Part shown: positions 6,403 through 22,373 of the stretch, in pieces
How positions within the stretch are numbered: the stretch's first letter is position 1
How the letters are laid out: every line of letters starts with the position of its first letter
Assembly: GCF_000194155.1 (NCBI RefSeq)
Contig: NZ_GL877878.1
Location: 3,240,907-3,304,906 of the forward strand
From: Saccharopolyspora spinosa NRRL 18395
GTDB taxonomy: Bacteria > Actinomycetota > Actinomycetes > Mycobacteriales > Pseudonocardiaceae
Length of the DNA: 64,000 nucleotides
Direction: 5' to 3'
Translations under genes and position numbers: made by a program
Notes under the pieces: model-generated
The model's input: only the letters and a program-made list of their open reading frames with translations
Databases searched by the model: none
What the model was told of the DNA's origin: nothing

Positions 6403-7467
6403 TCATCCGCGCAGCAGTGGTAGGAGCTGATCGCCCTGGCGCTTGATCTCCGGCAGGTAGGGGGTGTCGGAGAGCACGAAGTGGGTGATGCCGAGACTCT
6501 GGTACTTCCGCAGCGACTTCGCCACGTCTTCGGCAGAACCGACCAGCCAGGTGGTACCCGCACCGCCACCACCGTACTTGCCTGGCGTGGTGTAGAGGTT
6601 CTCGTCGAGCACTTCGCCCCGTGCGGCCAGGTCAAGCAGCCGCTGCTGCCCCGTGGCGGTCCGCCGGTTCGGATCGAGGAGGCCGATTCCCTTGCCCCGC
6701 GCCATCTCCGCGACCTTCGCCTCGGCGTCGGCCCACGCCTGTTCGGTGGTGTCCCGCACCAGAGTGGTGACCCGCAACCCGAACTCCAGCGGAGCGTGCT
6801 CGCGGCCGCGCTTCTCGCTGAGCCGCTTGAGCCGGTCGATCCGCTCGCTGATGCCGCCGAGCGGCTCTCCCCAGAAGAGCTGGACATCCGCTTCGGTGGC
6901 GGCCACCTCCTCGGCGGCTGAAGAGGCCCCGCCGAAGTAAATCCGGGGGTGTTTGCGTCCGCCCTGGACAACCGGTCGGGGCAGCACTGTGGAGTCGGTG
7001 ACGCTGAAGTGCTCGCCGCGGTAGGTGACGTTCTCCTCGGTCCACAGCTTGCGCGCGATCTGGAGGAACTCCCGGGTGCGGGCGTAGCGGTGGGCTTGGT
7101 CGCCTTCGCTGTCGCCGTAGGCCGCCAGATCGTCCTTTCCCGACACGATGTTCACCAGCACCCGGCCGCGGGTGAGTTGGTCCAGTGTCGCGGCGGCGGA
7201 GGCGAAGTTGGCCGGATGCCAGTAACCGGGCCGGATCGCGATCAGCGGCTGGAACGTCGTGGTCTGCGCGGCCAGTGCGGTGGCGACGGTGAAGGTGTCG
7301 GGTCTACCCCATCCGGCGCCGATGAGCGCGCCGCCCCAGCCGTGTTCTTCGAGGGCTTTGGCGTGGCTGGTGAGGGTCGCAAGGCTGTTGTGGTCGGCTA
7401 CGACGTCGTCGCCGCGGTGACCGGGATGGACCTGGTTCGGGATGTACCAGAGGAGTTCGAGGCTCAT
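6403..7467 (-). CDS. SsuD-like alkanesulfonate/organosulfur monooxygenase
   Basis: This 354-residue luciferase-like (LLM) flavin monooxygenase is close to the family's usual length of about 380. Residues 1-20 (MSLELLWYIPNQVHPG) and the block at 77-113 (LIAIRPGYWHPANFAS...GRVLVNIVSGKD) are typical of the SsuD/SfnG branch. That branch uses FMNH2 and O2 to split C-S bonds, releasing sulfite. The C-terminal WLVGSAEDVAKSLRKY and THFVLSDTPYLPEI complete the barrel. It is the last gene of the long minus-strand operon, 82 bases after the previous stop. No flavin reductase is encoded in the operon, so FMNH2 must come from elsewhere. Substrate is unknown. Confidence 0.85.
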   Translation of the reverse strand: MSLELLWYIPNQVHPGHRGDDVVADHNSLATLTSHAKALEEHGWGGALIGAGWGRPDTFTVATALAAQTTTFQPLIAIRPGYWHPANFASAAATLDQLTRGRVLVNIVSGKDDLAAYGDSEGDQAHRYARTREFLQIARKLWTEENVTYRGEHFSVTDSTVLPRPVVQGGRKHPRIYFGGASSAAEEVAATEADVQLFWGEPLGGISERIDRLKRLSEKRGREHAPLEFGLRVTTLVRDTTEQAWADAEAKVAEMARGKGIGLLDPNRRTATGQQRLLDLAARGEVLDENLYTTPGKYGGGGAGTTWLVGSAEDVAKSLRKYQSLGITHFVLSDTPYLPEIKRQGDQLLPLLRG

Positions 7468-7549: not shown

Positions 7550-8890
7550 TCACGCCAGAGCCTGGACCGCTGTGGGCAGCGGCGGGCTCGGCAACGGCAG
7601 CCCGAGACGACCGCGGAGGGTGCGGTGGCCGTAGTCCTCCTGGAACAGGCCGCGCTCCTGCAGGATCGGCACCACTAGGTTGGCGAAGTTCTCCAGGTCG
7701 ACGACGGTTTCCGCCGGCATGACCGTGAAGCCATCCGCCGCGCCCGCCTCGAACCACGACTGCAGGTCGTCGGCGACCTGCCGCGCGGAGCCCACCAGCA
7801 GCCGATGTCCCGCACCGCCGGCACCGCGCTGGATGAGCTCGCGGGGCGTGCGGGGCCCCTCCGCGATCAGGGCCCGAGTGGCGGAGCTGAAGCCTGCGGA
7901 GAAGGCTCCGCCCGGTACGGTGTCGGGGAGATCGTCGGCGGCTATCGGGTCGTCCGGACCGAATTCGCCGTGCGGCAGGCCGAGGTTCCGGAGTAGCGCA
8001 GCGGTCAGCCGCTCGATCGGCAGGGTCGCGTAAAGCTCCTGTTCCCGGCGTCGGGCTTCCTGCTCGGTTGCCGCGACGAGAACGACCACTCCGAGGGAGG
8101 TCTTCACGTCGTCGGGGTGCCGGCCGGCCGCCGCCGCGCGCCGGCGGATGTCGTCGCGGAAAGCGACCGCCTTCGCACGGGTTTGCGCCACGGTGAACAC
8201 GACATCGGCGAAGCGGCCGGCCAGCGCGAGCCCACCTTCGGAACCGCCTGCCTGAACGACGACTGGCCTCCCCTGCGGGCCCGCCTTGACCGGAAGAGGC
8301 CCGGCCACGGAGAAGAACTCGCCCTCGTGGTCGATCCGGTGGATGCGCGAAGGGTCGGCGAAGCGACCGCGGTCCTTGTCCGCGGTAATCGCGTCAGGTG
8401 CCCAGCCATCCCACAGCCGGGTCACGACTTCGAGGAACTCGTGCGCCCGGCGGTAACGGGTCCGCTTGCCGGGGTGCTCGGTCAGGCCGAAGTTCGCGGC
8501 CGCGGCGGGCGTTCCGGTGGTGACCACGTTGACCGCCGCTCGCCCCTTGGTGACGTGATCGAGGTCCTGGAACCGGCGAGCCAGGTCGTACGGCGAGTTG
8601 TAGGTCGTGGAGCTGGTGATGACCACGCCGAGGTTCGTGGTGATCGCCGCCAGATTTCCCAGGAGCACGAACGGGTCGAGCCCCGTGCCCGGTGCTTCCT
8701 CGATCCCATCGTGTAACGCCGGGGCGTCCCCCAGGAAGACCGCGTCGATCTTCGCGTCCTCGGCGATCCACGCCAGCCGCTGGAAGAAGTCGATGTCCAG
8801 GTAGGACAGCGGATCTGCGTGCGGCAACCGCCAGGCGTGGCGGAAGTGGCCGGGTGTCATCACCGACAGGTTGAGGTGGAATCCCTTCAT
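7550..8890 (-). CDS. NtaA/DmoA/DszA-family FMN-dependent monooxygenase
   Basis: This 446-residue LLM protein has the group hallmarks. The N-terminus reads [20 protein letters not shown]. It is followed by [80 protein letters not shown] and [20 protein letters not shown]. Family members open aminopolycarboxylate, dimethyl sulfide or dibenzothiophene sulfone substrates with FMNH2. Its ATG overlaps the stop of the preceding LLM gene (ATGA), so the two are translated together. In this operon an organosulfur substrate is the likely target (inference). Confidence 0.85.
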
Positions 8891-10038
8891 CGTGTCCCTC
8901 TCGATGTGGTGGCTCGGTCTGATCGCCCGGTGTGGTGCCCGGTTCCCACGAGCGGGCGGTCGGCCGGTCGCGCCGAGGACAGCGGTGCAGGTCGCCAGCC
9001 GAGCAGGGGTGCGAGTTCCTGCGCACCGGCGGTGAGCAGGCGGACGTGTTCGTCGAAATCGGGCACCCCGGGGACGAAACTCACCAGCAGGTCGGTGATT
9101 TGGCGCAACGCGGGATCGGCGGCCAGCTCGGCGGCCAGGGCGTCCGGCGGACCAAGCAGTGCGCGGTCGGCCGCCAAGTACTCCTCGACGTCGAGGCCAG
9201 CGACGTCACGCCGAGTGGAAAGCCAACTCTGCCAACGGCGAACGCCGGGCGTGACCAGCCGCACCGCCGTTTCGCGGTCCGGGTGCGGGTAGACGGCTCG
9301 GGAGACCTGCACCCGGGCCTGCCGGTCGGGCTCACGCCAGGCCGCGCGGTAGTCCTCGATCCACCGCGCCTGCTGGTGCTGCGCTTCGCGAACGGTCGTG
9401 CCGCGCCAGCCGGTCGCGCGGGAGAACTGCAGCCCGTCGCCGGCGAGTGCGGCGGCGGCCGCCCCGGCACCGGCCCGTTGCGGATCGCTGGTGGTGGCCT
9501 GCCACAACCGTCGCCGCACGCCGGCGGCGGGCGGGTGGAGCACCTCACCGAGGCTGTTGAGCGCCGTACCCTCCAGCACCTCGTGCAGGCGCGCTACCGA
9601 TTCGTCGAAGAGCCGGTGCCTGTCGGCCAAGTCCTTCCCGAATGCCTCCCAAGCCCCCGGGAAGGGCCCCGACCCGACGCCCAGCTCGAGTCGGCCGCCG
9701 CTGAGCTCATCGAGCGTCGCCGCGTCTTCGGCGACCTTGAGGGGATCCTCCAGCGGGAGCACCAGCACGCCGGTGCCCAGCGCGATCCGGCTGGTGTGCT
9801 CGGCGATGGCGGCGAGCAAGATCAGCGGCGCGGATACGTGCTCATTGCCCTGCCGGAAGTGCCGCTGGATGACCCATCCCGAGTCGTAGCCCAGTTCCTC
9901 CGCGACCGCGAACAACTCGATCGCTTCCCGGTACGCCCGGGCCGGCGGCTGATCATCGTCGAGGTGCAGGAGGAAGCCCAGGCGGAAGGGGCGGCCGTCC
10001 TCGACACCGGCCCCGATCGTCCCAACGAGGTCCGTCAT
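8887..10038 (-). CDS. LLM-class flavin-dependent oxidoreductase
   Basis: This 383-residue bacterial-luciferase-like protein carries [13 protein letters not shown] at the N-terminus, [20 protein letters not shown] and [40 protein letters not shown], a flavin phosphate-binding region, and a C-terminal helical part with [20 protein letters not shown] follow. It belongs to a different LLM branch from its neighbours (alkanal monooxygenase-like rather than NtaA-like). The start is ATG 10038, two bases after the stop of the aldo/keto reductase gene. It overlaps the next gene by four bases. The exact reaction is unknown. Confidence 0.8.
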
Positions 10039-10039
10039 C

Positions 10040-11071
10040 TCAGAGCCTCAGCCCGGTACCGTGCACACCGTGCTCGTCGATCAGGGCCAGCTCTTCCTCT
10101 GTCAGCGGCGGGAATTCGAGCGCCCTGACGTTGTGGTCCAGTTGCCGAACCGAGCTGGCGCCGATGAGCGCCGAGGTCACCTGCGGCTGCCGCAGCACCC
10201 ACTGCAGCGCCAGCTGCGCCAGGGACTGGCCGCGCTGCTCGGCGATCTGGTTGAGGGCGTTGGCCCGCCGCCGATAGGTGTCGTCGATGACGTCAGGTGA
10301 GAGGAACGTGCTGTTCTCGGCGCGCGCACCCGCTGGGATGCCATCGAGGTACTTGTCCGTCAGCAGTCCCTGCGCCAACGGCGAGTAGACGACCAGGCCG
10401 AAGCCGTCCTCGGCGGCCAGCTTGAGCAGACCGTTGTTCTCCGGGCTGCGGTCGAAGATCGAGTACCGGGGCTGGTGGACCAGCAGCGGAACTCCCGACC
10501 GGCGCAGCAGGTCGGCCGCCTCGTGCGCCCGCTCGGGCTGGTAGTTGGAGATGCCGGCGTAGAGCGCCTTGCCTTGCTGCACCGCGCTGACCAGCGCACC
10601 GACGGTCTCCTCCAGCGGCGTGGTCGGGTCCGCGCGGTGGCTGTAGAAGATGTCGACGTAGTCGGTGCCCAGATCGCGCAAGCTGTGGTCCAGCGAGGCC
10701 AGCAGCGACTTGCGCGAGCCGCCCTTCTGGTAAGGACTGGGGCCGATCGGGTTGCCGGCCTTCGTGGACAGGATCAGCTCGTCCCGGTACGGGGCCAGGT
10801 CCTTGCCCAGCACCCTCCCTAACAGCTGCTGCGCGGCGCGGTGCGGCGGGCCGTACCGGTCGGCGTTGTCGAAGTGCGTGATGCCCAGGTCGAAGGCGTG
10901 CAGCACGATATCGCGCTGGGTCTCGTAGGGGTGGTCGGTGCCGAACTTCTGCCACAGGCCGAAGGAGAACGCGGGCAGGTCAAGGCCGGAGTGGCCGGCA
11001 CGCCGGTACTCGATCTTGTCGTAGCGGTCTTCGGCCGCCGCGTAAGTCTTCTCGAAAACGCCGTAGCTCAT
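10040..11071 (-). CDS. Aldo/keto reductase, YghZ-like
   Basis: This 343-residue NADPH-dependent reductase shows the catalytic tetrad in standard context: Asp and Tyr in [12 protein letters not shown], Lys in [11 protein letters not shown], and His in IFYSHRADP. The glyceraldehyde-3-phosphate reductase (YghZ/GpR) subgroup is indicated by [20 protein letters not shown] and by [10 protein letters not shown]. The start at ATG 11071 follows AGGAAGGG; upstream in-frame codons lack a ribosome site. It may reduce aldehydes released when monooxygenases cleave C-S bonds, which would explain its place in this operon (inference). Confidence 0.88.
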
Positions 11072-11096
11072 GGTTGGATTCCCTTCCTGTTGCCGG

Positions 11097-12137
11097 TCAG
11101 TGGTTGCTCGTGCGGCCGCGGCGGAGCGCCGTCGGCTGCAGCGACGGGGTGTCGTGGCCGGTGTCCCGCTCGACGAAGTGCGTGCCGGGGTCGACGATCT
11201 CGTCGATGCGGTCGAGGACGTCCACACCGAGTTCGACGGTGGCGGCTTTGAGGTACGCCTCCAGGTGGTCCAGCGTGCGCGGGCCGATGATCACGCTGCT
11301 GACCGCCGGGTGGTTGAGCGCGAACGAAACGGCCAGCTCGACCACTGCCAGGCCGTTGTCCTCCGCCAGCCGGGCCAGCGCGTCGGCGGCGGCCAGCTTG
11401 CGCTGGTTGCGGTCAAGGCTGATGTCGAACCGGCCGGGGACGAGGTCGGCGCGCGCCGACTCCGGCTGCTCGCCGCCGACGCGGTACTTCCCGGAAAGCC
11501 AGCCGGCGGCAAGCGGACCGTAGCTGAGCACGCCGACGCCGTACTTGCGCACGACGGGGAAGACCTCGCGCTCGGCGCTGCGAATGAGCGGGGAGTACGG
11601 CAGCTGCTCGGTGTGCGGGGCGATGAGCCGGTGTTTCTCGGCCAGCCAGTGCGCCTCGACGAGCTGGTGCGCCGGGAACACCGACGTGCCGTAGTAGCGG
11701 ATCTTGCCCTGCTTGATCAGGTCGTTGAGGGTCTGCAGCGTCTCCAGCAGGTCGGTGTGCGGATCCGGCCGGTGCGCCTGGTAGAGGTCGATGTGGTCGG
11801 TGCCGAGCCGGCGCAGGCTGTCCTCCACGGCGCGGAGTATCCAGCGTCGGGAGTTGCCCGCGTGCTGGGGGTTGTCGCCGATCTGGCCGTGGAACTTGGT
11901 GGCGAGGAAGACGTCGTCGCGGCGGCCCTTGATCGCCTTGCCCACGATCTCCTCGGACCTGCCCTGGGCGTAGATGTCGGCGGTGTCGACGGCCGTGATC
12001 CCGGCATCCAGGGCGGCCCGGATAATCCTGGTGCTCCCGCTTTCCTCCTGCCAACGGCCGAAGTTCATGGTGCCGAGCGTCAGCGGCGTGACGAGGACGC
12101 CGGTGCGGCCGAGTGCGCGGTTGACCTCGATGGTCAT
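11097..12137 (-). CDS. Aldo/keto reductase
   Basis: This 346-residue protein belongs to the AKR superfamily. The Asp/Tyr pair lies in AVDTADIYAQGRSEEIVG, Lys in VFLATKFHGQIG, His in IDLYQAHRPDPHTD, and the C-terminal NADPH-binding part in VIIGPRTLDHLEAYL. It differs from its neighbour in subgroup (closer to the YajO/general stress type). ATG 12137 follows AAAGGAAC. It is separated from the upstream SfnB-like gene by a perfect 23-bp tandem duplication. Two non-identical reductases in one sulfur-type operon suggest two different carbonyl products. Confidence 0.87.
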   Translation of the reverse strand: MTIEVNRALGRTGVLVTPLTLGTMNFGRWQEESGSTRIIRAALDAGITAVDTADIYAQGRSEEIVGKAIKGRRDDVFLATKFHGQIGDNPQHAGNSRRWILRAVEDSLRRLGTDHIDLYQAHRPDPHTDLLETLQTLNDLIKQGKIRYYGTSVFPAHQLVEAHWLAEKHRLIAPHTEQLPYSPLIRSAEREVFPVVRKYGVGVLSYGPLAAGWLSGKYRVGGEQPESARADLVPGRFDISLDRNQRKLAAADALARLAEDNGLAVVELAVSFALNHPAVSSVIIGPRTLDHLEAYLKAATVELGVDVLDRIDEIVDPGTHFVERDTGHDTPSLQPTALRRGRTSNH

Positions 12138-12146
12138 CGGGTTCCT

Positions 12147-12192
12147 TTCGGTCGATTCGTCGGGTGGCTTTCGGTCGATTCGTCGGGTGGCT
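12147..12192. repeat. Perfect 23-bp tandem duplication
   Basis: The 23 bases starting TTCGGTCGATTCGTCGGG at 12147-12169 are repeated exactly at 12170-12192. They fill the short gap between the SfnB-like gene (whose stop begins in the second copy) and the aldo/keto reductase. This looks like a recent slippage duplication that lengthened the intergenic space. Confidence 0.9.
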
Positions 12193-13442
12193 CAGAACAG
12201 CCCGGTCGTCGGCGGCTCCTCGCCGGTCAGGTGGTACGCACCAGCCACTGCGGCTTTCCACTGCCGTGGGTTGTGGTTGGCGACCGTGCGGGCGTTGCGC
12301 CAGTGCCGGTCGAACCCGAGGTCGCGGTTGGTGATCGAGCCCCCTCCGACGTCGAAGAGCAGCTCGGCGGCGCGCAGCGCGGACTCGACGGCGATCACGC
12401 CGGTCTGCGCCACGGTGACGGCGGCCTCCGCGCCCACGGCTCGCGCCTGCAGTCCGGCCAGGCCGCGCACGCCCGCCAGTGCTTCGGCGGCGAACAGCAC
12501 CGCCGCGCGGGCTGCCTGCGCCCGGGCGGCAATTTCGCCCACCGTCTCGCGCACGTACGGGTCCTCGACGCTCTTGTCGGCTGTGCTGTGCTTGATCGGT
12601 CGCGCTTTCTCTCGGGCGAACCAGACGGCGTCGTCCAGCGCTGCTGCGGCGATGCCCGCTTCCACCGCCGCCAGGTAGAGCTGGGCGAAGGATCCCAGCC
12701 ACGGGCTGTCGAACCGGGTGTTGTCGCGGACCTCGACTTCGTCCGCGTCGACCCGCACGTTCACCAGCCGCGTGGTACCGCTCGCGGTGAGCCGCTGGCC
12801 GACGGCGTCGAAGTCGTCGAGCCGCTGCACGCCCTCGCGATCCACCGGCACCGTGAAGCCCAGCACCGTCCCGTTCTCGTCGCGGGCCAAGCCCGAGAAC
12901 CACGAGGCGTAGAGCCCACCGGTCGAGTAGTACTTCTCCCCGTTGATGACGTACCCGTCGCCGACGCGCCGGATGGTGGTGTTGACCGTTCCGCTGGCAC
13001 CGCCGGTGCGCTCGTTGGCGGTGCCAGCGAAGAGGTCGCCGTTGCGCAGCCGCTGCAGCGTCACCGCCCGGTTCGGCAGATCGCGCAGGGTCGCCACCCG
13101 GTTGGCGACGAGGAAGCTGCTTCGCAACGCCTGCGCCACGTTGGAATCGGCCCTGGCGATGGCCATCACCAGTTCGGTCAAGTCCCGCAGCGAGCCGCCG
13201 GCACCACCGTCCTCCGCCGCGATGCCGACCAAGGTGATGCGCTGCCCGGCCAGCGCCCGGACGTCTTCGAAGGCGTACTCGCGGGCTCGTTCCCGCGCGC
13301 CGGCACAGGCTCCGATGCGCTGCAGGATCGGGGAAATCGCAGTGCGGATGCTTTCGGCTGTGAACCGGGTGGGTGTGGGAAGCCGCCCAGCGCGGGGCTC
13401 GGTCGCGGCGGCGGGTCCTGTGTCCACCAGTTCGGCACTCAC
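12192..13442 (-). CDS. SfnB/DszC-like flavin-dependent oxidase (acyl-CoA dehydrogenase fold)
   Basis: This 416-residue protein has the acyl-CoA dehydrogenase fold. Helical N-domain: ILQRIGACAGARERAREYAF. Substrate/flavin region: ANERTGGASGTVNTTIRRVG and NGEKYYSTGGLYASWF. C-terminal helices: FDVGGGSITNRDLGFDRHWR and ARTVANHNPRQWK. The terminal RHWRNARTVANHNP is a hallmark of the SfnB/DszC subgroup, which lacks the acyl-CoA dehydrogenase glutamate and acts as an FMNH2 oxidase on sulfur or related heteroatom compounds. GTG 13442 overlaps the preceding stop (GTGA). Confidence 0.85.
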   Translation of the reverse strand: MSAELVDTGPAAATEPRAGRLPTPTRFTAESIRTAISPILQRIGACAGARERAREYAFEDVRALAGQRITLVGIAAEDGGAGGSLRDLTELVMAIARADSNVAQALRSSFLVANRVATLRDLPNRAVTLQRLRNGDLFAGTANERTGGASGTVNTTIRRVGDGYVINGEKYYSTGGLYASWFSGLARDENGTVLGFTVPVDREGVQRLDDFDAVGQRLTASGTTRLVNVRVDADEVEVRDNTRFDSPWLGSFAQLYLAAVEAGIAAAALDDAVWFAREKARPIKHSTADKSVEDPYVRETVGEIAARAQAARAAVLFAAEALAGVRGLAGLQARAVGAEAAVTVAQTGVIAVESALRAAELLFDVGGGSITNRDLGFDRHWRNARTVANHNPRQWKAAVAGAYHLTGEEPPTTGLF

Positions 13443-14410
13443 CTCAGCACCTCCGCGGCCTCGCGCAGGCCGAACGCGGCCCGCAAGGTCGGTGGGGACG
13501 AGTCGGCAGCAGCGTCCGCGATCTGCGGGACCAACCCACGCAGCACGGTCACCACGTCCTCGGCGCCACCCGTGGGTACCAGTTCGAAACCATCCAGCCG
13601 GTGCTCGTCAGCCCAGGCGCGGAGCTCATTACCGACGGCTGCGGCAGCCGGGTCGTCCGTGGCGACCTCGACACGGCCGAGCAGCGCGACGTCCTCCCGG
13701 GAACGGCCGGCTCGCCGCAACGCCACCGTGAGCGCGGCGTCGGCACCGGCGGCGCGCTCACGGTCCACCACGACGACATCCGCGGACCGCGCCACCGCGG
13801 TCGGGTCGAGGGCCCCGAGATCTGCCACGAGAACAGGGCGTCCTTGCGCCGACGAGGGACCGTCCAGGGGGCCCGCGACGCGGTAGAAGGCGGCTTCGTG
13901 GTTGATCGGCTCGATGAGCGCGTCGTCGGCGACGAGGCCCGACTCCTGGTCGCCGATCAGCGCCGCGCGCGGGAAGGACTCCCACAACCGGGTCAGCACC
14001 AAGGCGTACTCCGCCCAGCGCTGGGCGGGATCGGTCGCGCTGGGGGCCGGGACGGTTGCCTCGCTCACCTCGTCGCCGCCGCCCGCGCTCAGGGCGACAC
14101 CGGTTCGGCCACCGGCGGCCCGGTCCAGCGAGAGCACCCGGCGCGCGGCGTTGTAGGGCGCGTTGTGGGTCGTCGGGACCTCGGCGACAAAGCCGACGCC
14201 GCCGTGGATGCCGGCGAGGTAGGCGCCTACGACGGTCGGGTCAAGCGTGCGGCCCGCTCCGCCGTCGACGAGCCGGATCGCCGCGACCCCGACCTCTTCG
14301 GCCACCGCCGCGATGGCGGCCGCATCGGCGAGCGAAACCGGCGACGCGCCGTCGACAGGTCCGCCGGTCGCCTCGCCGACCGCGAGGGTGAGCTGGATCG
14401 CCTTGCTCAC
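13439..14410 (-). CDS. Divergent LLM-class protein
   Basis: This 323-residue protein starts at GTG 14410, overlapping the stop of the NtaA-like gene. The LLM barrel is recognisable: AIAAVAEEVGVAAIRLVDGG, FVAEVPTTHNAPYNAARRVL, GGRTGVALSAGGGDE, RWAEYALVLTRLWESFPRAA, GRPVLVADLGA and the C-terminal RLDGFELVPTGGAEDVVTVL. It is about 100 residues shorter than its NtaA-like neighbours. Several blocks are reduced, including the usual QAGGS phosphate-binding loop, which reads VADLGA here. It may be a non-catalytic partner or a narrowly specialised enzyme. It is coupled on both sides by four-base overlaps. Confidence 0.75.
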   Translation of the reverse strand: MSKAIQLTLAVGEATGGPVDGASPVSLADAAAIAAVAEEVGVAAIRLVDGGAGRTLDPTVVGAYLAGIHGGVGFVAEVPTTHNAPYNAARRVLSLDRAAGGRTGVALSAGGGDEVSEATVPAPSATDPAQRWAEYALVLTRLWESFPRAALIGDQESGLVADDALIEPINHEAAFYRVAGPLDGPSSAQGRPVLVADLGALDPTAVARSADVVVVDRERAAGADAALTVALRRAGRSREDVALLGRVEVATDDPAAAAVGNELRAWADEHRLDGFELVPTGGAEDVVTVLRGLVPQIADAAADSSPPTLRAAFGLREAAEVLR

Positions 14411-15672
14411 GAGGAGATCACCTGTCCTTCCTGGTAGGGGTCGAGCAGATGGCGCTCGTGCGCCGCTGCGGGAACTGCGGGAAGACCGAGCCCGAGGTGC
14501 TCGCGCAGGGTCGTCCCGTCGTATTCGGTCCGGAACAGGCCTCGCCTCTGCAGCTCGGGAATCACGTGATCGGCGAAGTCGTCGAAGCCCGACGGCAGCA
14601 CGTCGGGCATCACGTTGAAGCCGTCGGCCGCACCGGCGCGGAACCACGTTTCGATGTCGTCGGCGATCTGCTCCGGCGTCCCTACGACGATCCGGTGGCC
14701 ACCGCCGCCGGAGAGCTTCTTCAACAGCCGGCCGAGCGTCGGTCTCTCCTTCTCGATGATTTCCTTGACAACGCGGTAGAAGCTCTGCGACCCACCGGCC
14801 TCGTCGGGTTGGACGAGCAGCTCGGTCGGGATCGTTTCGTCGTCGCGCCGTCCGTCGAGGGAGATCCCGAGCTGGCCCGCCAACCGGTTCCGGGCGTAGG
14901 CGTCCGGGAGTATGTCGTCCAACAGCTCCCGCCGGGCCTTGGCCTCCGCCTCGGTGCTGCCCACGACGGTGGAAAGCCCCGGCAGCACCACGATTTCCTC
15001 GGGACCGCGCCCGAACTCGGCTGCACCGTTGCGGATCTCGGTGCGGAACGCCCGGGCGTGGTCGAGGTCCTGATCGGCGGAGAAGATCACCTCGGCGACG
15101 CGGGAGGCCAGCCGCCGCCCGTCGCTGGAACCACCGGCCTGGACGACGACCGGCCGGCCTTGCGGGGAGGCGAATTGGGTCCTTCCCGCCCAGTCGGCGA
15201 TGACCCGCTCGGTGAGCTCGGCGGCGCGGCGGTAGCGCGAAGCGTGCTCGGGCTCGCTCGTGCGGCCGAAGTTGCGCGCCGCCACCGATCCCGCCGTGGT
15301 CACCACGTTCCAGCCGAAGCGGCCACCGCTGACGTGGTCGAGGTCGCCGAGCCGGCGCGCCAGTTCGGCCGGGTCGTTGTACGACGACGACAGCGTCCCG
15401 ATCAGACCGATCCGCTCGGTCTGGGCAGCGATGCGCGCCAGAACCGTGGTGGGCTCCAGGTTGTTGCCGGTGCGGTGCTTGATGCTCGGGTCGAGCAGCG
15501 GGCTGTCCGCCAGGAAGACCGCGTCGAGTTTGGCTTCCTCGGCCTTCTTCGCGATCGAGGTGTAGTGCTCGATCCGGTAGCTCGCGGTGCCGTCGGTGTT
15601 CGGGAATCGCCACGACCCGCCGAAGACGCCCGCGTTGAGGATGTTGACGTTGATGTGCAGTTGACGTGACAC
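14407..15672 (-). CDS. NtaA/DszA-family FMN-dependent monooxygenase
   Basis: This 421-residue LLM protein has [100 protein letters not shown] and GAADGFNVMPDVLPSGFDDF. These are full-length family hallmarks. Compared with the paralogue at 7550-8890 it is equally complete but only moderately similar by eye, so the two probably take different substrates. It follows the ABC ATPase gene closely and overlaps the next LLM gene by four bases, placing monooxygenation directly after uptake. Confidence 0.87.
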   Translation of the reverse strand: MSRQLHINVNILNAGVFGGSWRFPNTDGTASYRIEHYTSIAKKAEEAKLDAVFLADSPLLDPSIKHRTGNNLEPTTVLARIAAQTERIGLIGTLSSSYNDPAELARRLGDLDHVSGGRFGWNVVTTAGSVAARNFGRTSEPEHASRYRRAAELTERVIADWAGRTQFASPQGRPVVVQAGGSSDGRRLASRVAEVIFSADQDLDHARAFRTEIRNGAAEFGRGPEEIVVLPGLSTVVGSTEAEAKARRELLDDILPDAYARNRLAGQLGISLDGRRDDETIPTELLVQPDEAGGSQSFYRVVKEIIEKERPTLGRLLKKLSGGGGHRIVVGTPEQIADDIETWFRAGAADGFNVMPDVLPSGFDDFADHVIPELQRRGLFRTEYDGTTLREHLGLGLPAVPAAAHERHLLDPYQEGQVISS

Positions 15673-15683
15673 GCTTTTCCTCC

Positions 15684-17348
15684 TCAGCGCACGCCGGCCG
15701 GGGCGAGCCGGACTCCCGGGATCGCCGCCAGCAGGTCCCGGGTGTACTCGTGCCGCGGCGAGTGGAACACCTGCTCCACCGGGCCGGTCTCCAGCACGAC
15801 ACCGTCTTTCATCACCGTGACGTCGTGCGCGATCAGGCGTACGACGCCGAGGTCGTGGGTCACGAACACGTAGCTGAGCCCGTACTCGGCCTGCAGGTCG
15901 ACCAGCAGCTGCAGGATCTGCGCCTGGGCCGAGACGTCGAGCGCGCTTACCGCCTCGTCCAGGACAAGGACCTTCGGCGTGAGCGCGAGTGCCCGCGCGA
16001 TCGCGACGCGCTGCCGCTGGCCTCCCGAGAGCTGGCTCGGGAGCCGGTGCAGGTAGCTGGCGTCCAGCGCCACCGCCTCCAGCAGCTCGACCACCCGGGC
16101 CGTCCGCTCCTGCTTGCCCGTCGCCAGTCCGAATGCGCGCAGCGGCTCCGCGATGATCCTGCTCACCGTGAAACGCGGGTCGAGCGAGGTGAACGGGTTC
16201 TGGAACACGAACTGCAGATCCCGGCGGATCTCCTGCAGCTGTCCGCGGCGGAGGCCGCCTAGCACGCGATCATCGACGCGCACCGTGCCGCTGTCCGCTG
16301 CGGTGAAGGCGGCCAGGATGCTCGCCAGCGTCGACTTGCCGGCACCGGACTCCCCCACGATCGCGTGCGTCGTTGCCTTCCGCACCAACAGGTTTGCCGA
16401 GTCCAGCGCACGCAGCTCGCCCTGGCCCCGCAGGCGGTAGGTCTTGGTCAGCTCGCGTGCTTCCAGCTCCGTCGGCGCTGCGGCGGGAACCAGCCGGGCG
16501 CCCGATGCCGCTGGGGCCGCGTCGAGCAACCGCCGCGTGTAGTCGTCGGTCGCATTCTCCAGAACCTGGTGCGCCGGGCCGTCTTCCACGATTTCGCCTT
16601 GCCGCATGACCAGAATCCGGTCGGAGCGGTCCAGCGCGACGCCGAGGTCGTGGGTGACCAGGAGAACGCCGATGCCGAGTTCCTCGCGCAGCCGCACCAG
16701 GTGGTCGAGGATGACCTTCTGGACAGTGACGTCAAGCGCGCTGGTGGGTTCGTCGGCCAAGATGATCTTCGGCTTGCCCGCAAGCGCGATCGCGATGAGC
16801 GCGCGCTGCTTCATGCCGCCGCTGAGCTCGTGGGGGTATTGCTGGAACACCCGCTCGGCGTCGTTGAGGCCCGCGGTGCGCAGGCTCTCCAACGCGGCCT
16901 CCTCGTGCTGCGACGCATTCCTCGCAGCGCGCTCGTTGAACCGGACCGCCTCGATCACCTGCTGCCCGATCTTCTTGACCGGGTTGAGCGAGGTGTTGGG
17001 GTCCTGCGGGATGAAGCCCACGTGGTTGCCCCGCACCAGTGCCATCCGCTGATCGTTCCAGCCGGTGACATCGACGCCGGAATAGACGATGGAACCGGAC
17101 CGGATCCGCGCGGAGCTCGGCAGCAGGCCGAGCGCGCCCTGAACCACGGTGGTCTTGCCCGAGCCGGACTCCCCCACCAGCGACACGAACTCGCCCGGCT
17201 CCACGTGCAGGTCGACCCCGCGGACCGCCCTGGTCCACCTGCGGTGTCCGTTGCGGTAGTCGATCGCTAGATCGGTGATCCGCAGCAGCGCGTGGTCATC
17301 CTCCGCCACAGCGGCGGCCGCTCCGGACGCGGTGGCAATGTCGGCCAT
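15684..17348 (-). CDS. ABC importer ATPase, two nucleotide-binding domains fused
   Basis: This 554-residue protein carries two complete ATPase domains of the Dpp/Opp (peptide/nickel) type. In the first, Walker A is at 59-67 (GESGSGKTT), the signature at 175-179 (LSGGM), and Walker B with its Glu at 195-200 (IILADE). In the second, Walker A is at 332-340 (GESGAGKST), followed by LSGGQRQRVAIARAL and VLVLDEAVSALD. The two normally separate DppD/DppF subunits are thus one polypeptide, as in GsiA-type proteins. Its ATG at 17348 overlaps the permease stop by one base. It energises the importer encoded upstream. Confidence 0.92.
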   Translation of the reverse strand: MADIATASGAAAAVAEDDHALLRITDLAIDYRNGHRRWTRAVRGVDLHVEPGEFVSLVGESGSGKTTVVQGALGLLPSSARIRSGSIVYSGVDVTGWNDQRMALVRGNHVGFIPQDPNTSLNPVKKIGQQVIEAVRFNERAARNASQHEEAALESLRTAGLNDAERVFQQYPHELSGGMKQRALIAIALAGKPKIILADEPTSALDVTVQKVILDHLVRLREELGIGVLLVTHDLGVALDRSDRILVMRQGEIVEDGPAHQVLENATDDYTRRLLDAAPAASGARLVPAAAPTELEARELTKTYRLRGQGELRALDSANLLVRKATTHAIVGESGAGKSTLASILAAFTAADSGTVRVDDRVLGGLRRGQLQEIRRDLQFVFQNPFTSLDPRFTVSRIIAEPLRAFGLATGKQERTARVVELLEAVALDASYLHRLPSQLSGGQRQRVAIARALALTPKVLVLDEAVSALDVSAQAQILQLLVDLQAEYGLSYVFVTHDLGVVRLIAHDVTVMKDGVVLETGPVEQVFHSPRHEYTRDLLAAIPGVRLAPAGVR

Positions 17349-18229
17349 CAGTCGTGGTCCTTCCTGAACGAAGTGCTGATCCGGTGGGTGGCGAGCACGA
17401 CCACCGCCAGTGCCGCCCCCGGCAGGAGCGATATCCACGGGTAGACCGCTACGAAGTCACGCCCCTCGGCGACCAGGAGTCCCCACTCCGGCGTCGGCGG
17501 CGGCGCGCCGTAGCCGAGGAAACCGAGGCCTGCCACGGCGAGGATCGAGGTGCCGATCTCCAGTGCCGCCAGCGCGAGCACCGAGCTCAGCGAATTCGGC
17601 ACGATGTGCCGGAGCACCACGCCGAGCCGGCCGACACCGAGCCCGTACGCCGCGCGCACGTAATCCCGGGAGACGACGGTGAGCACCTCGGCTCGCATGA
17701 CCCGCGCGAAGGCGGCGATGGACGAGATACCCACCGCGACGGCGATGTTGTTCGTGGAGTAACCCAGCACGGAAACGATGATCATGGCCAGCAACAGGTT
17801 CGGGATCGCGAGGAAGACGTCGACCACCCGCATGATCGCGGTGTCGGTCACGCCGCCGGCGAACCCGGCAGCCAGCCCCACCGCGGTGCCGGCACCGAAC
17901 CCGATGAGCACGGCGAACAGCGTGGCGGCCAGCGTGGTCCCCGCGCCGAAGACGCTGCGCGCGAAGAGGTCCCGGCCCAGCCGGTCGGTGCCGAACCAGT
18001 GTTCCGCGCTCGGCGGTGCGAAGCTGGCGTCGGGCTCGCCGACGTAGGGGTTGTAGGTGGTGAACGCTCCGGGGAACAGCGCCCAACCGACCGCGACCAG
18101 CAGTATGATCCAGGCGAGCAGCAGTCCCGGCTTGCGGACGATCCCACCGAGCCGGTCGAGCGCGCTGCGAGCGATGTCGGCCCACCGGCTGCCGGTGGGC
18201 GCGGTCAGGGCGTCGAATTCGACGGTCAA
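17348..18229 (-). CDS. ABC importer permease, DppC-like
   Basis: This 293-residue membrane protein has about six hydrophobic segments. A first helix (LLLAWIILLVAVGWALFPGA) precedes EHWFGTDRLGRDLFARSVFG, the DppC hallmark. The cytoplasmic EAA loop is RVMRAEVLTVVSRDYVRAAY with GLGVGRLGVVLRHIVPN. It forms the inner-membrane pore with the following permease. It starts 10 bases after the stop of the DppB-like gene and overlaps the ATPase gene by one base. Confidence 0.92.
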   Translation of the reverse strand: MTVEFDALTAPTGSRWADIARSALDRLGGIVRKPGLLLAWIILLVAVGWALFPGAFTTYNPYVGEPDASFAPPSAEHWFGTDRLGRDLFARSVFGAGTTLAATLFAVLIGFGAGTAVGLAAGFAGGVTDTAIMRVVDVFLAIPNLLLAMIIVSVLGYSTNNIAVAVGISSIAAFARVMRAEVLTVVSRDYVRAAYGLGVGRLGVVLRHIVPNSLSSVLALAALEIGTSILAVAGLGFLGYGAPPPTPEWGLLVAEGRDFVAVYPWISLLPGAALAVVVLATHRISTSFRKDHD

Positions 18230-18239
18230 CTGGTCCTCC

Positions 18240-19202
18240 TCAGTCCGCCGGACGGGCGGTGGGCACGGCGAAGGTGGCGCGCAGCCGCGGATCCAGCAGC
18301 GGGTAGATCAGGTCCACGACCAGGTTGATCAGCGCGAAGGTGGCGGCAACGAAGACGACGATTCCCTGCACCAGCGGGAGATCGAGCGTGTTGATCGCCG
18401 TTTGCGTCATTCGACCGAGTCCCTTGCGGGCGAAGACCGTCTCGGTGATGACCGATCCCGCGACGAGATTGCCGAAGGTGACGGCGGCGATGGTCAGCGC
18501 GGGCAGGCTGGCGTTGCGGAAGACGTCACCGACGATGACGCGGGTGCGGGTGGCGCCCTTCGCCCAGCTCGTCGTGACGTAGCCCGAGCGGAACTCGGCG
18601 GCGAAGCAGCGCACGAGGAGTTGCGCGATGGGACCGGAGACCGGGATCGCCAGCGTGATCAGCGGCAGCACCAGGCTCCGCCAGCCCTGATCCCCGAACG
18701 ACGGGAACCAGCCGAGCCTGAAGGAGAAGACCTGCAGCAGCAGGATGCCGGAGAGGAAGACCGGCACCGAGACCGAGGCCGTCGGCAGCGACTCGACCAG
18801 GTTGCGCAACCACCGGTGCCGGGTCGAAGTCGCGACGAGCGCGATGGTGAACGCGATGACCAGCGCGAGCAGCAGCGCCCCGACGGCGAGCACCAGGGTG
18901 TGCGGGAGCACATCGAGGACCACCGCCCTGACCGACTGGCCCGACTGCACCGAGGTTCCGAAGTCGCCCCGCAGCGCGTGTCCGAGCCGACCGAGGTATT
19001 GCAAGAGGACCGGCTCGTTGAAGCCGTAGCTGTCCGCGACCTGCGCGCGCACCTCCGGCGGCACGGAGTTGAGCTCGGTCGGGTCGAAGAGGAGATCGAC
19101 CGGGTTGGCCGGCAGCACGAACAAGAAGACGAAGGTCAGGGTGAACGCCGCCCAGACCACGAACGCGGCCCGGCCGGCCTTCAGCGCGACGTAACGCAGC
19201 AC
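18240..19202 (-). CDS. ABC importer permease, DppB-like
   Basis: This 320-residue membrane protein starts MLRYVALKAGRAAFVVWAAF, the typical first helix. It has the DppB markers GRLGHALRGDFGTSVQSGQS, an EAA loop in TSWAKGATRTRVIVGDVFRN and GSVITETVFARKGLGRMTQT, and five or six hydrophobic spans. It lies 58 bases after the binding-protein stop and 10 before the DppC-like gene. The transported molecule is unknown. Peptide-type importers also carry nickel chelates, opines and sulfur compounds, and the downstream genes favour the last. Confidence 0.92.
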   Translation of the reverse strand: MLRYVALKAGRAAFVVWAAFTLTFVFLFVLPANPVDLLFDPTELNSVPPEVRAQVADSYGFNEPVLLQYLGRLGHALRGDFGTSVQSGQSVRAVVLDVLPHTLVLAVGALLLALVIAFTIALVATSTRHRWLRNLVESLPTASVSVPVFLSGILLLQVFSFRLGWFPSFGDQGWRSLVLPLITLAIPVSGPIAQLLVRCFAAEFRSGYVTTSWAKGATRTRVIVGDVFRNASLPALTIAAVTFGNLVAGSVITETVFARKGLGRMTQTAINTLDLPLVQGIVVFVAATFALINLVVDLIYPLLDPRLRATFAVPTARPAD

Positions 19203-19260: not shown

Positions 19261-20976
19261 TCACTTCCCGTCGCTCTTCCAGGTGTCCACGAAGTGGTTG
19301 CGGGACTGGGCGTCGAAGACGATGCCGTGCACGTACGGCGCCTGGGCGATCACCTGCGAGGGGTTGTAGACCGGGTTCACGAGCGCGTACTTGTCGATCA
19401 GGATGTCCTGCGCCTGCTTGGCGTACTGGGTGCGCGCGGCCGGGTCGAGGGTCGTTTCAAGCCTGCCCAGCACCTGCGTGACCTCGTCCGCGTCGACCCC
19501 GGTGGAGTCTTTCGTGACGTACGCGCCGTTGCCGCTCTGCGGCCCGTACTGCCAGTTGAGGACCGCCGGATCGTTGCGGGAGCGGTTGGCTGCGACGACG
19601 TTCCAGTCGGTCTTCGCCTTGGCCTGCTGGGCGGTGTAGTCCGGGATCGGCACGACGGTGAGCTGCAGATCGATACCGATCTTCCGCAGGTCCTGCTGGA
19701 TCGACTCGTAAGCCGGCTTGTTCACCACCAGGTTGTTGATGCCCAGCAGCTTGACCACCAGCTTCTTCCCCTCCTTGACCCGGATCCCGTCGGGGCCGGC
19801 CACCCAGCCGGCCTCGTCGAGGATCCGCGCGGCCTGCTCCGGGTCGTGCTTCAGCACCGAACCGCTGTAGTCGGCGTGTCCGGGCACCGACGGTTCGAGG
19901 ATCGAGTCCGCAACCGAGTAGGAGTCGGTCAGGATGGTCTTCTGGACGCTCTGCCGGTCCCAGCCGAGCTGGATCGCCTTGCGGACCGCGATGTCGTTGG
20001 TCGGGAAGAGCGAGCTGTTGAAGTCGAACCGGATCGCCGTGCCGGACACGCCGCGGTGGATTATCTCGAAACCCTGTGCGGACAAAGGCTTCTCATCGGT
20101 TGTGCCGACGTCGAGGGTCGCGTCGATCGTGCCGGACACCAAAGAACCGGTGCGGACGCTGGCCTCCGGGATCGTGTTGAACACGATCCTGTCCAGATAC
20201 GCCTCACCAGGGTGGCGCAGCGCGGGCGGAGCCCAGTTGTAGCCGTTTCGCTTGACCAAGACCGTTTTGGCCTGCGGCTCCCACGACTCGTACACGAAAG
20301 GGCCGGTACCGATCACCTTCTTCGGGTCCGTCCGCTGCTCCGCGCTGAGCTTCAACGTCGAGGGCGACAGGAAGCCCGGCTGCGCATTGGCCGTGAACGA
20401 AGACGCCTGGAGGAAGCTCGCGAGCGGTCTCTCGAAGCGGACCACGGCGGTGTATTCGTCCACCACCCTGGTTTCGAGGTAGCCGGGCAGCAGGGTGGCG
20501 CCGTTGGGCAGGATCCCCAGGCTCGGGTCGCCGTGCACGTACTGGTCGAAGTTGGCTTTGACGGCCTCGGCGTTGAACGGCGACCCATCGCTGAACGTCA
20601 CGTCCCGGCGCAGGTGGAAGGTGAATTCGGTCAGGTCCTCGTTGTACTCCCACGACTGGGCCAGCCACGGCGTGATCTCACCGGTCTTGGGGTCCTGCCA
20701 GGTCAGCTTGTCGGTGATGTTGTTGCCGATCAGCGACTCGGCGTAGTTGGTGCCCCACTGCGGATCGAGGCTGCGCTGGTAGTCGATCAGCGCGAACTGC
20801 AGCGTGCCACCGCGGACGGGCGCGCCGTCGGCCGCGCCCGGATCGGCGCCGCCGCCCCTGGTTGCGGCGAAAGCGGCGATTCCGGCGATCAGCAGGATGG
20901 CGAACGCGATCGCCGGCAACCGCCATTTCTTGCGCGCGGACGTCGCGCTCTCGATGGAACTGCGAAGGTCGGACAT
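19261..20976 (-). CDS. ABC importer substrate-binding protein (SBP_bac_5)
   Basis: This 571-residue family 5 solute-binding protein is membrane anchored by a helix at residues 19-38 (RLPAIAFAILLIAGIAAFAA) rather than by a lipobox cysteine. Family blocks include GGTLQFALIDYQRSLDPQWG, LAQSWEYNEDLTEFTFHLRR, FSDGSPFNAEAVKANFDQ and GTGPFVYESWEPQAKTVLVK. It starts at ATG 20976 after GGGAGAA. It is the first full gene of the operon, 213 bases downstream of the leader peptide stop. It should select the compound fed to the monooxygenases. Confidence 0.92.
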   Translation of the reverse strand: MSDLRSSIESATSARKKWRLPAIAFAILLIAGIAAFAATRGGGADPGAADGAPVRGGTLQFALIDYQRSLDPQWGTNYAESLIGNNITDKLTWQDPKTGEITPWLAQSWEYNEDLTEFTFHLRRDVTFSDGSPFNAEAVKANFDQYVHGDPSLGILPNGATLLPGYLETRVVDEYTAVVRFERPLASFLQASSFTANAQPGFLSPSTLKLSAEQRTDPKKVIGTGPFVYESWEPQAKTVLVKRNGYNWAPPALRHPGEAYLDRIVFNTIPEASVRTGSLVSGTIDATLDVGTTDEKPLSAQGFEIIHRGVSGTAIRFDFNSSLFPTNDIAVRKAIQLGWDRQSVQKTILTDSYSVADSILEPSVPGHADYSGSVLKHDPEQAARILDEAGWVAGPDGIRVKEGKKLVVKLLGINNLVVNKPAYESIQQDLRKIGIDLQLTVVPIPDYTAQQAKAKTDWNVVAANRSRNDPAVLNWQYGPQSGNGAYVTKDSTGVDADEVTQVLGRLETTLDPAARTQYAKQAQDILIDKYALVNPVYNPSQVIAQAPYVHGIVFDAQSRNHFVDTWKSDGK

Positions 20977-21189
20977 AGAATTCTCCCGTGCTGGAGAGGC
21001 AGCGGACGACGGCACGAGGTGGTGACATCCGTCGTGGTCGGCAGGCATGGTCCTGCCACCGCGGGCGGATTTCTCTGCCGTTGGGTGGACGAGGGCGCAC
21101 TGCGCCCGCACAGATTTGAAGGGCTCTGAAACCCGAAGGAGTGCGCAGGTTCGCTGCCGGCACTCAGGCGCGAACGGTGCGGCTGTCGA

Positions 21190-21264
21190 TCAGCCCTGAC
21201 ACCGAGCGCTGGCGAAGAACGCGAGATCGACCTCTCGCCTGGACCACAGGAGTGAATCACCCAC
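21190..21264 (-). CDS. Leader peptide of the sulfur operon (24 residues)
   Basis: A GTG at 21264-21262 opens a 24-residue frame ending TGA at 21192-21190. Its C-terminal half reads RREVDLAFFASARCQG. This fits the RRxVDLxxxxSAxC signature of short actinomycete leader peptides found before sulfonate and sulfur genes, with Cys at residue 22. The residue numbers of RR, VDL, SA and C match the second leader at 22296-22373 exactly. The GTG is placed about where transcription should begin, so the message is probably leaderless. The likely role is cysteine-responsive attenuation of the 14.3-kb operon. The conclusion rests on motif, spacing and position, not on experiment. Confidence 0.7.
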   Translation of the reverse strand: MGDSLLWSRREVDLAFFASARCQG

Positions 21265-21270
21265 GAGACG

Positions 21271-21299
21271 ACTATATGTCGCGAAACAAGGCCAGCCAA
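21271..21299 (-). promoter_or_regulatory. Promoter of the leader peptide and sulfur operon
   Basis: On the minus strand TTGGCT (21299-21294) and TATAGT (21276-21271) are separated by 17 bases. The leader GTG begins seven bases after the -10 box, near the expected +1. This supports a leaderless transcript. Confidence 0.6.
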
Positions 21300-21329
21300 C
21301 GCATCCCACGAGGCAAGATCCCACGGAAA

Positions 21330-22295: not shown

Positions 22296-22373
22296 TCAGG
22301 AGGCCGGACACGCCGCCGAACCAATCCGCAGCAGATCCACGTGGCGGCGATTGGTCAGCAGCGGTCGGAGCAC
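22296..22373 (-). CDS. Second sulfur-type leader peptide (25 residues)
   Basis: GTG 22373-22371 opens a 25-residue peptide ending TGA at 22298-22296. Its core, LTNRRHVDLLRIGSAACPAS, is a near-textbook version of the actinomycete leader motif RRHVDLLR-x2-SAxC. The start lies six bases after a -10 box, again implying a leaderless message. It no longer precedes an intact gene: the DszC-like gene behind it is frameshifted and the rest is replaced by an IS630 fragment. The leader itself is intact while its operon has decayed. Confidence 0.78.
   Translation of the reverse strand: MLRPLLTNRRHVDLLRIGSAACPAS

Follow-up and report, generated by a model that had tools for sequence, protein, structure and literature searches.

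A putatively leaderless 24-codon open reading frame at the head of a large ABC transporter/monooxygenase operon of Saccharopolyspora spinosa probably encodes a cis-acting leader peptide, through which the operon would be controlled by cysteine-responsive, ribosome-mediated attenuation. The peptide is a distinct, so far unmodelled and operon-linked version of a known kind of cysteine leader. The following elements of the leader region were located in the window, that is, the whole 64-kb stretch of DNA that was analysed.

21190..21264, minus strand: leader frame VGDSLLWSRREVDLAFFASARCQG plus stop, 24 codons, opened by GTG at 21264 and with a stop codon that ends at 21190; the putative regulatory Cys is codon 22 (TGT)
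21271..21299, minus strand: promoter TTGGCT-N17-TATAGT, 6 nt 5' of the start codon, kept in three same-genus relatives
21303..21325, minus strand: two direct CGTGGGAT repeats, 15 nt apart and 5' of the −35 element, read as a candidate activator site

On the minus strand, the −35 element TTGGCT (21299-21294), a 17-base spacer, the −10 element TATAGT (21276-21271), CGTCTC and the GTG at 21264 follow one another. The initial annotation had described this promoter as pointing at the GTG of a 24-codon peptide; it was read at the same positions here and is conserved in relatives. It was the one sigma-70-like promoter found between 20850 and 22500, where shuffled sequences gave 0.0 ± 0.2. The geometry fits a leaderless-type promoter, with a transcript start predicted from sequence, and is kept among relatives; the spacing from the −10 element to the start of the leaders is maintained under two unrelated promoter types. 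The downstream CGTGGGAT copy is retained in G007, G020 and G015, and a CGTGGGA block resembling CGTGGGAT occurs in Amycolatopsis orthologs with a divergent LysR-like gene.

The NCBIfam actinomycete leader model NF042934 assigned VGDSLLWSRREVDLAFFASARCQG 15.3 bits (E 0.012), short of its curated cut-off of 27, with profile positions 1-19 (all 19 positions, ending in Cys) aligned to residues 4-22. Over the whole genome (8.6 Mb), the window leader scored 13.3 bits with an E value of 1.1 and ranked 16 of 22 matches. Its subfamily relatives received 17.7 bits or no match from NF042934. A position matrix built from other leaders, with both window peptides left out of training, gave the window leader 17.6; the best value among 60 copies of the 64-kb window generated by an order-3 Markov model was 16.2. 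The Rfam search of the window returned no match, and the literature search for the leader motif itself found no paper on it. Taken alone, the model scores are weak evidence for the peptide, a doubt that we consider removed by conservation across relatives. The leader is taken as real because orthologous operons repeat the peptide together with its start position and promoter geometry, which also bears out the earlier proposal that a leaderless Cys leader peptide heads the ABC/monooxygenase operon. The opposite reading, a chance short frame near a promoter with an accidental resemblance to RRxVDL...C, could appeal to the genome-wide E value; it is refuted by conservation, since the leader recurs at 13 loci in four families and every time at this or a related operon, and retains next to no probability.

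To follow the leader within the genus, we compared 22 Saccharopolyspora genomes, with the operon scored by its first structural gene, which encodes the substrate-binding protein (SBP). The SBP gene is present in four genomes, all four of which carry the leader peptide, and the remaining 18 have neither. In these four genomes, the leaders have the promoter and end 170-220 nt 5' of the SBP gene. Similarly, the A3 profile (13 leaders) exceeded 53 bits once in each of the four operon-bearing genomes; its best score in the 18 operon-less genomes was 21 bits, from a canonical leader. Moreover, among 26 further ortholog genomes, A3 gave a single strong match in each of nine, every one at the operon.

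A scan of named genomes yielded 27 SBP orthologs (68-89% identity), and a subfamily leader (SRRE[IV]D[FL] and a late Cys) lies directly 5' of the SBP gene in 10 of these loci, namely those of Saccharopolyspora, Micromonospora, Sphaerisporangium, Nonomuraea, three Glycomyces, Streptosporangium, Microbispora and Phytohabitans. The leader is present in four actinomycete families, including nine orthologous loci outside Saccharopolyspora. Each of the 13 leaders is 24 codons long and places its Cys at codon 22, and S8, R9, R10, E11, D13, A18 and C22 are invariant. The substitutions of E for H and FF for LR had initially been attributed to divergence of a single copy; since E and the replaced LR recur across orthologous operons, they are instead a conserved hallmark of an operon-linked subfamily rather than drift. 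The changed threshold suggested together with that divergence is unsupported by the present analysis.

The remaining 17 of the 27 named orthologous operons have no subfamily leader directly upstream. These include the operons of Amycolatopsis (L101; L090 and L091 belong to the same group), Actinoplanes and its kin, Dactylosporangium, Streptomyces shenzhenensis, Gordonia, Kribbella and Microbacteriaceae. The initial annotation had suggested searching for the peptide before orthologous operons, and the outcome can be described as mixed but favourable: all four same-genus operons and the 10 named loci have the peptide, and the other named loci are without it. In the window's family, L092 and L093 carry VSRSASLRRRQRLPPGACAHCRR plus stop, or a sister form, at the same leaderless position, with a late Cys and no RRxVDL. 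This leaderless-type frame has 23 codons, ends in CAHCRR or CAFCRR before the stop and lies approximately 160-230 nt before the SBP start; no NCBIfam model matched the replacement peptide of L093. Additionally, a canonical leader is located 0.4-1.8 kb upstream of three orthologs from Streptomyces/Peterkaempfera (L102, L121 and L124). When mapped on the SBP tree, the subfamily label requires 4 changes, compared with 10.9 for shuffled labels, which indicates that the leader was mostly inherited with the operon and was lost or replaced several times.

A CCTAY-N7-RTAGG palindrome, a candidate repressor operator, overlaps the promoter of orthologous operons. It lies upstream of the leader in L105, L106, L107, L125 and L126 and also occurs at the Actinoplanes-type loci L111 and L114, that is, with or without the leader, and is absent from Saccharopolyspora.

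We also searched with A3 for the leader only, in 343 genomes of the Nonomuraea-containing family and 351 of the Micromonospora-containing family, and obtained five new strong matches. The match in L225 heads an intact operon. In L209, L214 and L215, the operon is absent and the leader adjoins a divergent SsuD-like gene; transposase debris follows the leader in L209, and the start codon is gone in L214 and apparently also in L215. In L222, the leader heads genes for an ROK regulator, an NMT1-type SBP, a permease, an LLM monooxygenase and an SsuD-like protein. These results indicate that the subfamily goes with this operon and with a single related sulfur operon, and that it decays upon operon loss.

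The substitution pattern points to constraint on the peptide. In 13 chosen leader pairs, which are not independent, 38 amino acid changes were counted against 57 expected under random placement of the same base changes, and the +1 frame of the same pairs showed no deficit of amino acid changes. GC content in the leaders is 0.83 at the third codon position versus 0.60 and 0.59 at positions 1 and 2. TGT, the rarer of the two Cys codons, is used in 16/16 leaders versus 67/326 Cys codons of nearby long genes, a comparison in which related sequences are counted several times. In the canonical leaders of the window's genome (labelled L068-L079), TGT likewise stands at the first late Cys in 12 of 13, the exception being the sulfite reductase leader. 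The preference for TGT in canonical leaders as well suggests selection on the sensing codon. Amino-acid-level constraint could also reflect a small protein acting in trans; however, the leader is linked to the 5' end of the operon and its copies decay where the operon is lost, which makes action in trans very improbable.

The conserved unit could also be mainly an RNA or DNA element, either the hairpin GCGAG-n6-CTCGC over codons 10-15 or a block 3' of the stop codon, with the frame secondary. Across the 13 related leaders the hairpin is more stable than under synonymous recoding (mean z −1.2), and a block just 3' of the stop codon is conserved in Saccharopolyspora and Streptosporangiaceae. In contrast, the window's own hairpin is no more stable than the null (z −0.1), and the exact 24-codon length, the invariant Cys position, the leaderless start geometry and the coding-type substitutions all argue against such an element, which we regard as unlikely. 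The leader-internal hairpin was also rejected as the cause of the E and A residues, as the moderate gain in stability over synonymous recoding does not extend to the window itself.

The operon headed by the putative attenuating leader extends from 20976 to 6403 on the minus strand and contains the following genes.

19261..20976, minus strand: ABC substrate-binding protein, first structural gene, TIGR04028-like but below the model cut-off
18240..19202, minus strand: Opp/Nik-type ABC permease B
17348..18229, minus strand: Opp/Nik-type ABC permease C
15684..17438, minus strand: fused double ABC ATPase
14407..15672, minus strand: NtaA/DmoA family FMN-dependent monooxygenase (396.9 bits, cut-off 279.7)
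13439..14437 (approximate), minus strand: second LLM-type protein, partial NtaA/DmoA match
12192..13442, minus strand: SfnB-like (sulfur acquisition oxidoreductase) flavin enzyme (TIGR04022, 259 bits, cut-off of 430.9 not reached)
11097..12137, minus strand: aldo-keto reductase
10040..11227, minus strand: aldo-keto reductase
8887..10038, minus strand: LLM monooxygenase, TIGR04027-like but below the model cut-off
7550..8890, minus strand: NtaA/DmoA family monooxygenase (450.7 bits)
6403..7467, minus strand: SsuD-like alkanesulfonate or SfnG-like monooxygenase, below the cut-offs of both models

A 787-aa frame at 13439-15802 (minus strand) was set aside as misleading, since it reads the first half out of frame; the genes are those at 14407-15672 and approximately 13439-14437. 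The canonical leaders of the same genome precede genes for sulfite reductase, rhodanese, cysteine dioxygenase, TauE/SafE and two LLM monooxygenases, as well as an NMT1-type SBP, an FMN reductase, an ABC permease and a Trans_reg_C-domain regulator. Because this leader class precedes sulfur genes and the operon has SsuD-, SfnB- and DmoA-like enzymes, the sulfur role assigned to the operon at the outset is well supported; the operon is predicted to serve the uptake and use of organic sulfur.

Two identical leader-rhodanese units lie 1.5 kb apart in the window's genome (G000:C3:44590 and 46098; L069 and L070). In another genus, canonical leaders precede distant SBP genes of approximately 40% identity (three, and eight more). 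A SAM riboswitch (RF00162) lies immediately 5' of the canonical leader in L097 (14223-14317, minus strand) and L099 (12222-12316, minus strand), so that two sulfur sensors, the riboswitch and then the Cys leader, stand in tandem before a TIGR04028-type SBP. For L098, the riboswitch was listed on the strand opposite to the leader, although a similar sequence is visible on the strand of the leader.

A second leader lies in the window.

22296..22373, minus strand: canonical leader VLRPLLTNRRHVDLLRIGSAACPAS plus stop, behind TTGACA-N16-CATAGC; NF042934 30.5 bits, over the cut-off in the genome search

This peptide is also matched by the Ms4527A and Ms5788A Cys-leader models, below their cut-offs. 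It is followed by a decayed SfnB/acyl-CoA-dehydrogenase-like gene (22295-21400, minus strand). In G007 (L094), the same gene has an uninterrupted frame of at least 338 codons, and a transposase-like frame lies between leader and gene.

The route from the leader to the first gene was examined for structures that could transmit a ribosome pause, and one hairpin was found.

20982..20998, minus strand: hairpin CTCTCC-AGCAC-GGGAG pairing the Shine-Dalgarno sequence of the first gene, terminator-like in the scan, but located at the ribosome-binding site

Its counterpart is similar or weaker in three same-genus sequences, and the leader-to-gene interval on the minus strand has no other hairpin with a U-run. 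In Nonomuraea and Glycomyces, the gap between the leader and the SBP gene is 43-54 nt; this leaves little room for an intrinsic terminator and argues for control at the ribosome-binding site in these genera. In Nonomuraea L107, GCUUUCUUCG forms a 10-bp pairing with the ribosome-binding site, the sole clear case. An anti-Shine-Dalgarno function of the F-F codons (UUCUUCG), striking in this locus and plausible in Microbispora L125, was rejected as a general feature, as the pairing between leader and ribosome-binding site over all leaders was −15.1 kcal/mol for cognate and −14.9 kcal/mol for non-cognate combinations (permutation p 0.39). Folding with a modelled stalled ribosome did not consistently expose the Shine-Dalgarno sequence. 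For a terminator or covarying structure conserved across the leader-to-gene interval, RNAalifold on six sequences gave little support, attributing −1.1 of −45.4 kcal/mol to covariation.

The nearest systems with experimental tests are the leaderless polycysteine short ORFs of mycobacteria, for which PMC9031893 and PMC13236596 summarise Canestrari et al. 2020 and which PMC4633059 foreshadowed. Translation of the window leader, its response to cysteine and the sign of regulation are inferred by analogy with these ORFs. In the preferred reading, cysteine-responsive attenuation, transcription would start at or beside 21264, and ribosomes would translate the 24 codons at once. When Cys-tRNA is sufficient, ribosomes would reach the stop codon and the operon would stay low. 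When Cys-tRNA is short, they would pause at the TGT of codon 22, which lies three codons ahead of the stop, and the organic-sulfur ABC/monooxygenase operon would be expressed more strongly. The pause could act by freeing the ribosome-binding site of the first gene, blocking Rho or preventing a terminator.

The fixed spacing from the peptide body to the Cys codon would be compatible with a TnaC-like nascent-peptide arrest, in which SRRE[IV]D..A..A.A within the exit tunnel would help stall the ribosome at codon 22, so that cysteine is sensed by codon and peptide and not by codon hunger alone. This would refine, and overlaps with, the attenuation described above. The invariance of S8, R9, R10, E11, D13 and A18 at a fixed distance from C22, the amino acid constraint and the presence of one Cys codon only are consistent with it, although RNA structure may account for some of the constraint, and we regard arrest as possible rather than probable. 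Also possible rather than probable is a separate class of single-codon cysteine sensors, in which a peptide of constant 24-residue length, with a body (SRRE[IV]D...A.AxC) that joins in the arrest, would serve one organosulfur operon type, be kept with that operon across actinomycete families and use the rarer UGU codon as selected for sensing.

The conserved leader shows that, among the Cys leaders of actinomycetes, there are subfamilies dedicated to one operon type that the current model misses. It also supplies, from regulation, an argument that this large and uncharacterised ABC/monooxygenase operon has a sulfur role, and provides a compact system for asking whether one UGU codon and a conserved peptide body suffice to sense cysteine.

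Similar to the mycobacterial Ms5788A and Ms4527A, the window leader is a short ORF, predicted to be leaderless, with a late Cys codon before sulfur genes, and its mechanism is likened to their presumed Cys-responsive attenuation, as outlined in PMC9031893 and PMC13236596. In contrast to the polycysteine ORFs, it has a single Cys codon rather than a run, and a conserved peptide body. The cys leader peptides proposed in PMC1262725 for Mycobacterium, Propionibacterium and Bifidobacterium likewise have Cys codons near the stop and no evident terminator, whereas they belong to a different sequence family and precede different operons. A further close relative is NF042934 (cis_reg_atten, 'putative leader peptide', actinomycetes), which shares RRxVDL, the late Cys a few codons before the stop, the leaderless-type start and the location before sulfur genes. 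The window subfamily differs in having Glu for His/Tyr and Ala with mostly aromatic residues for (L/R)R, in scoring below the model cut-off and in being tied to one operon type.
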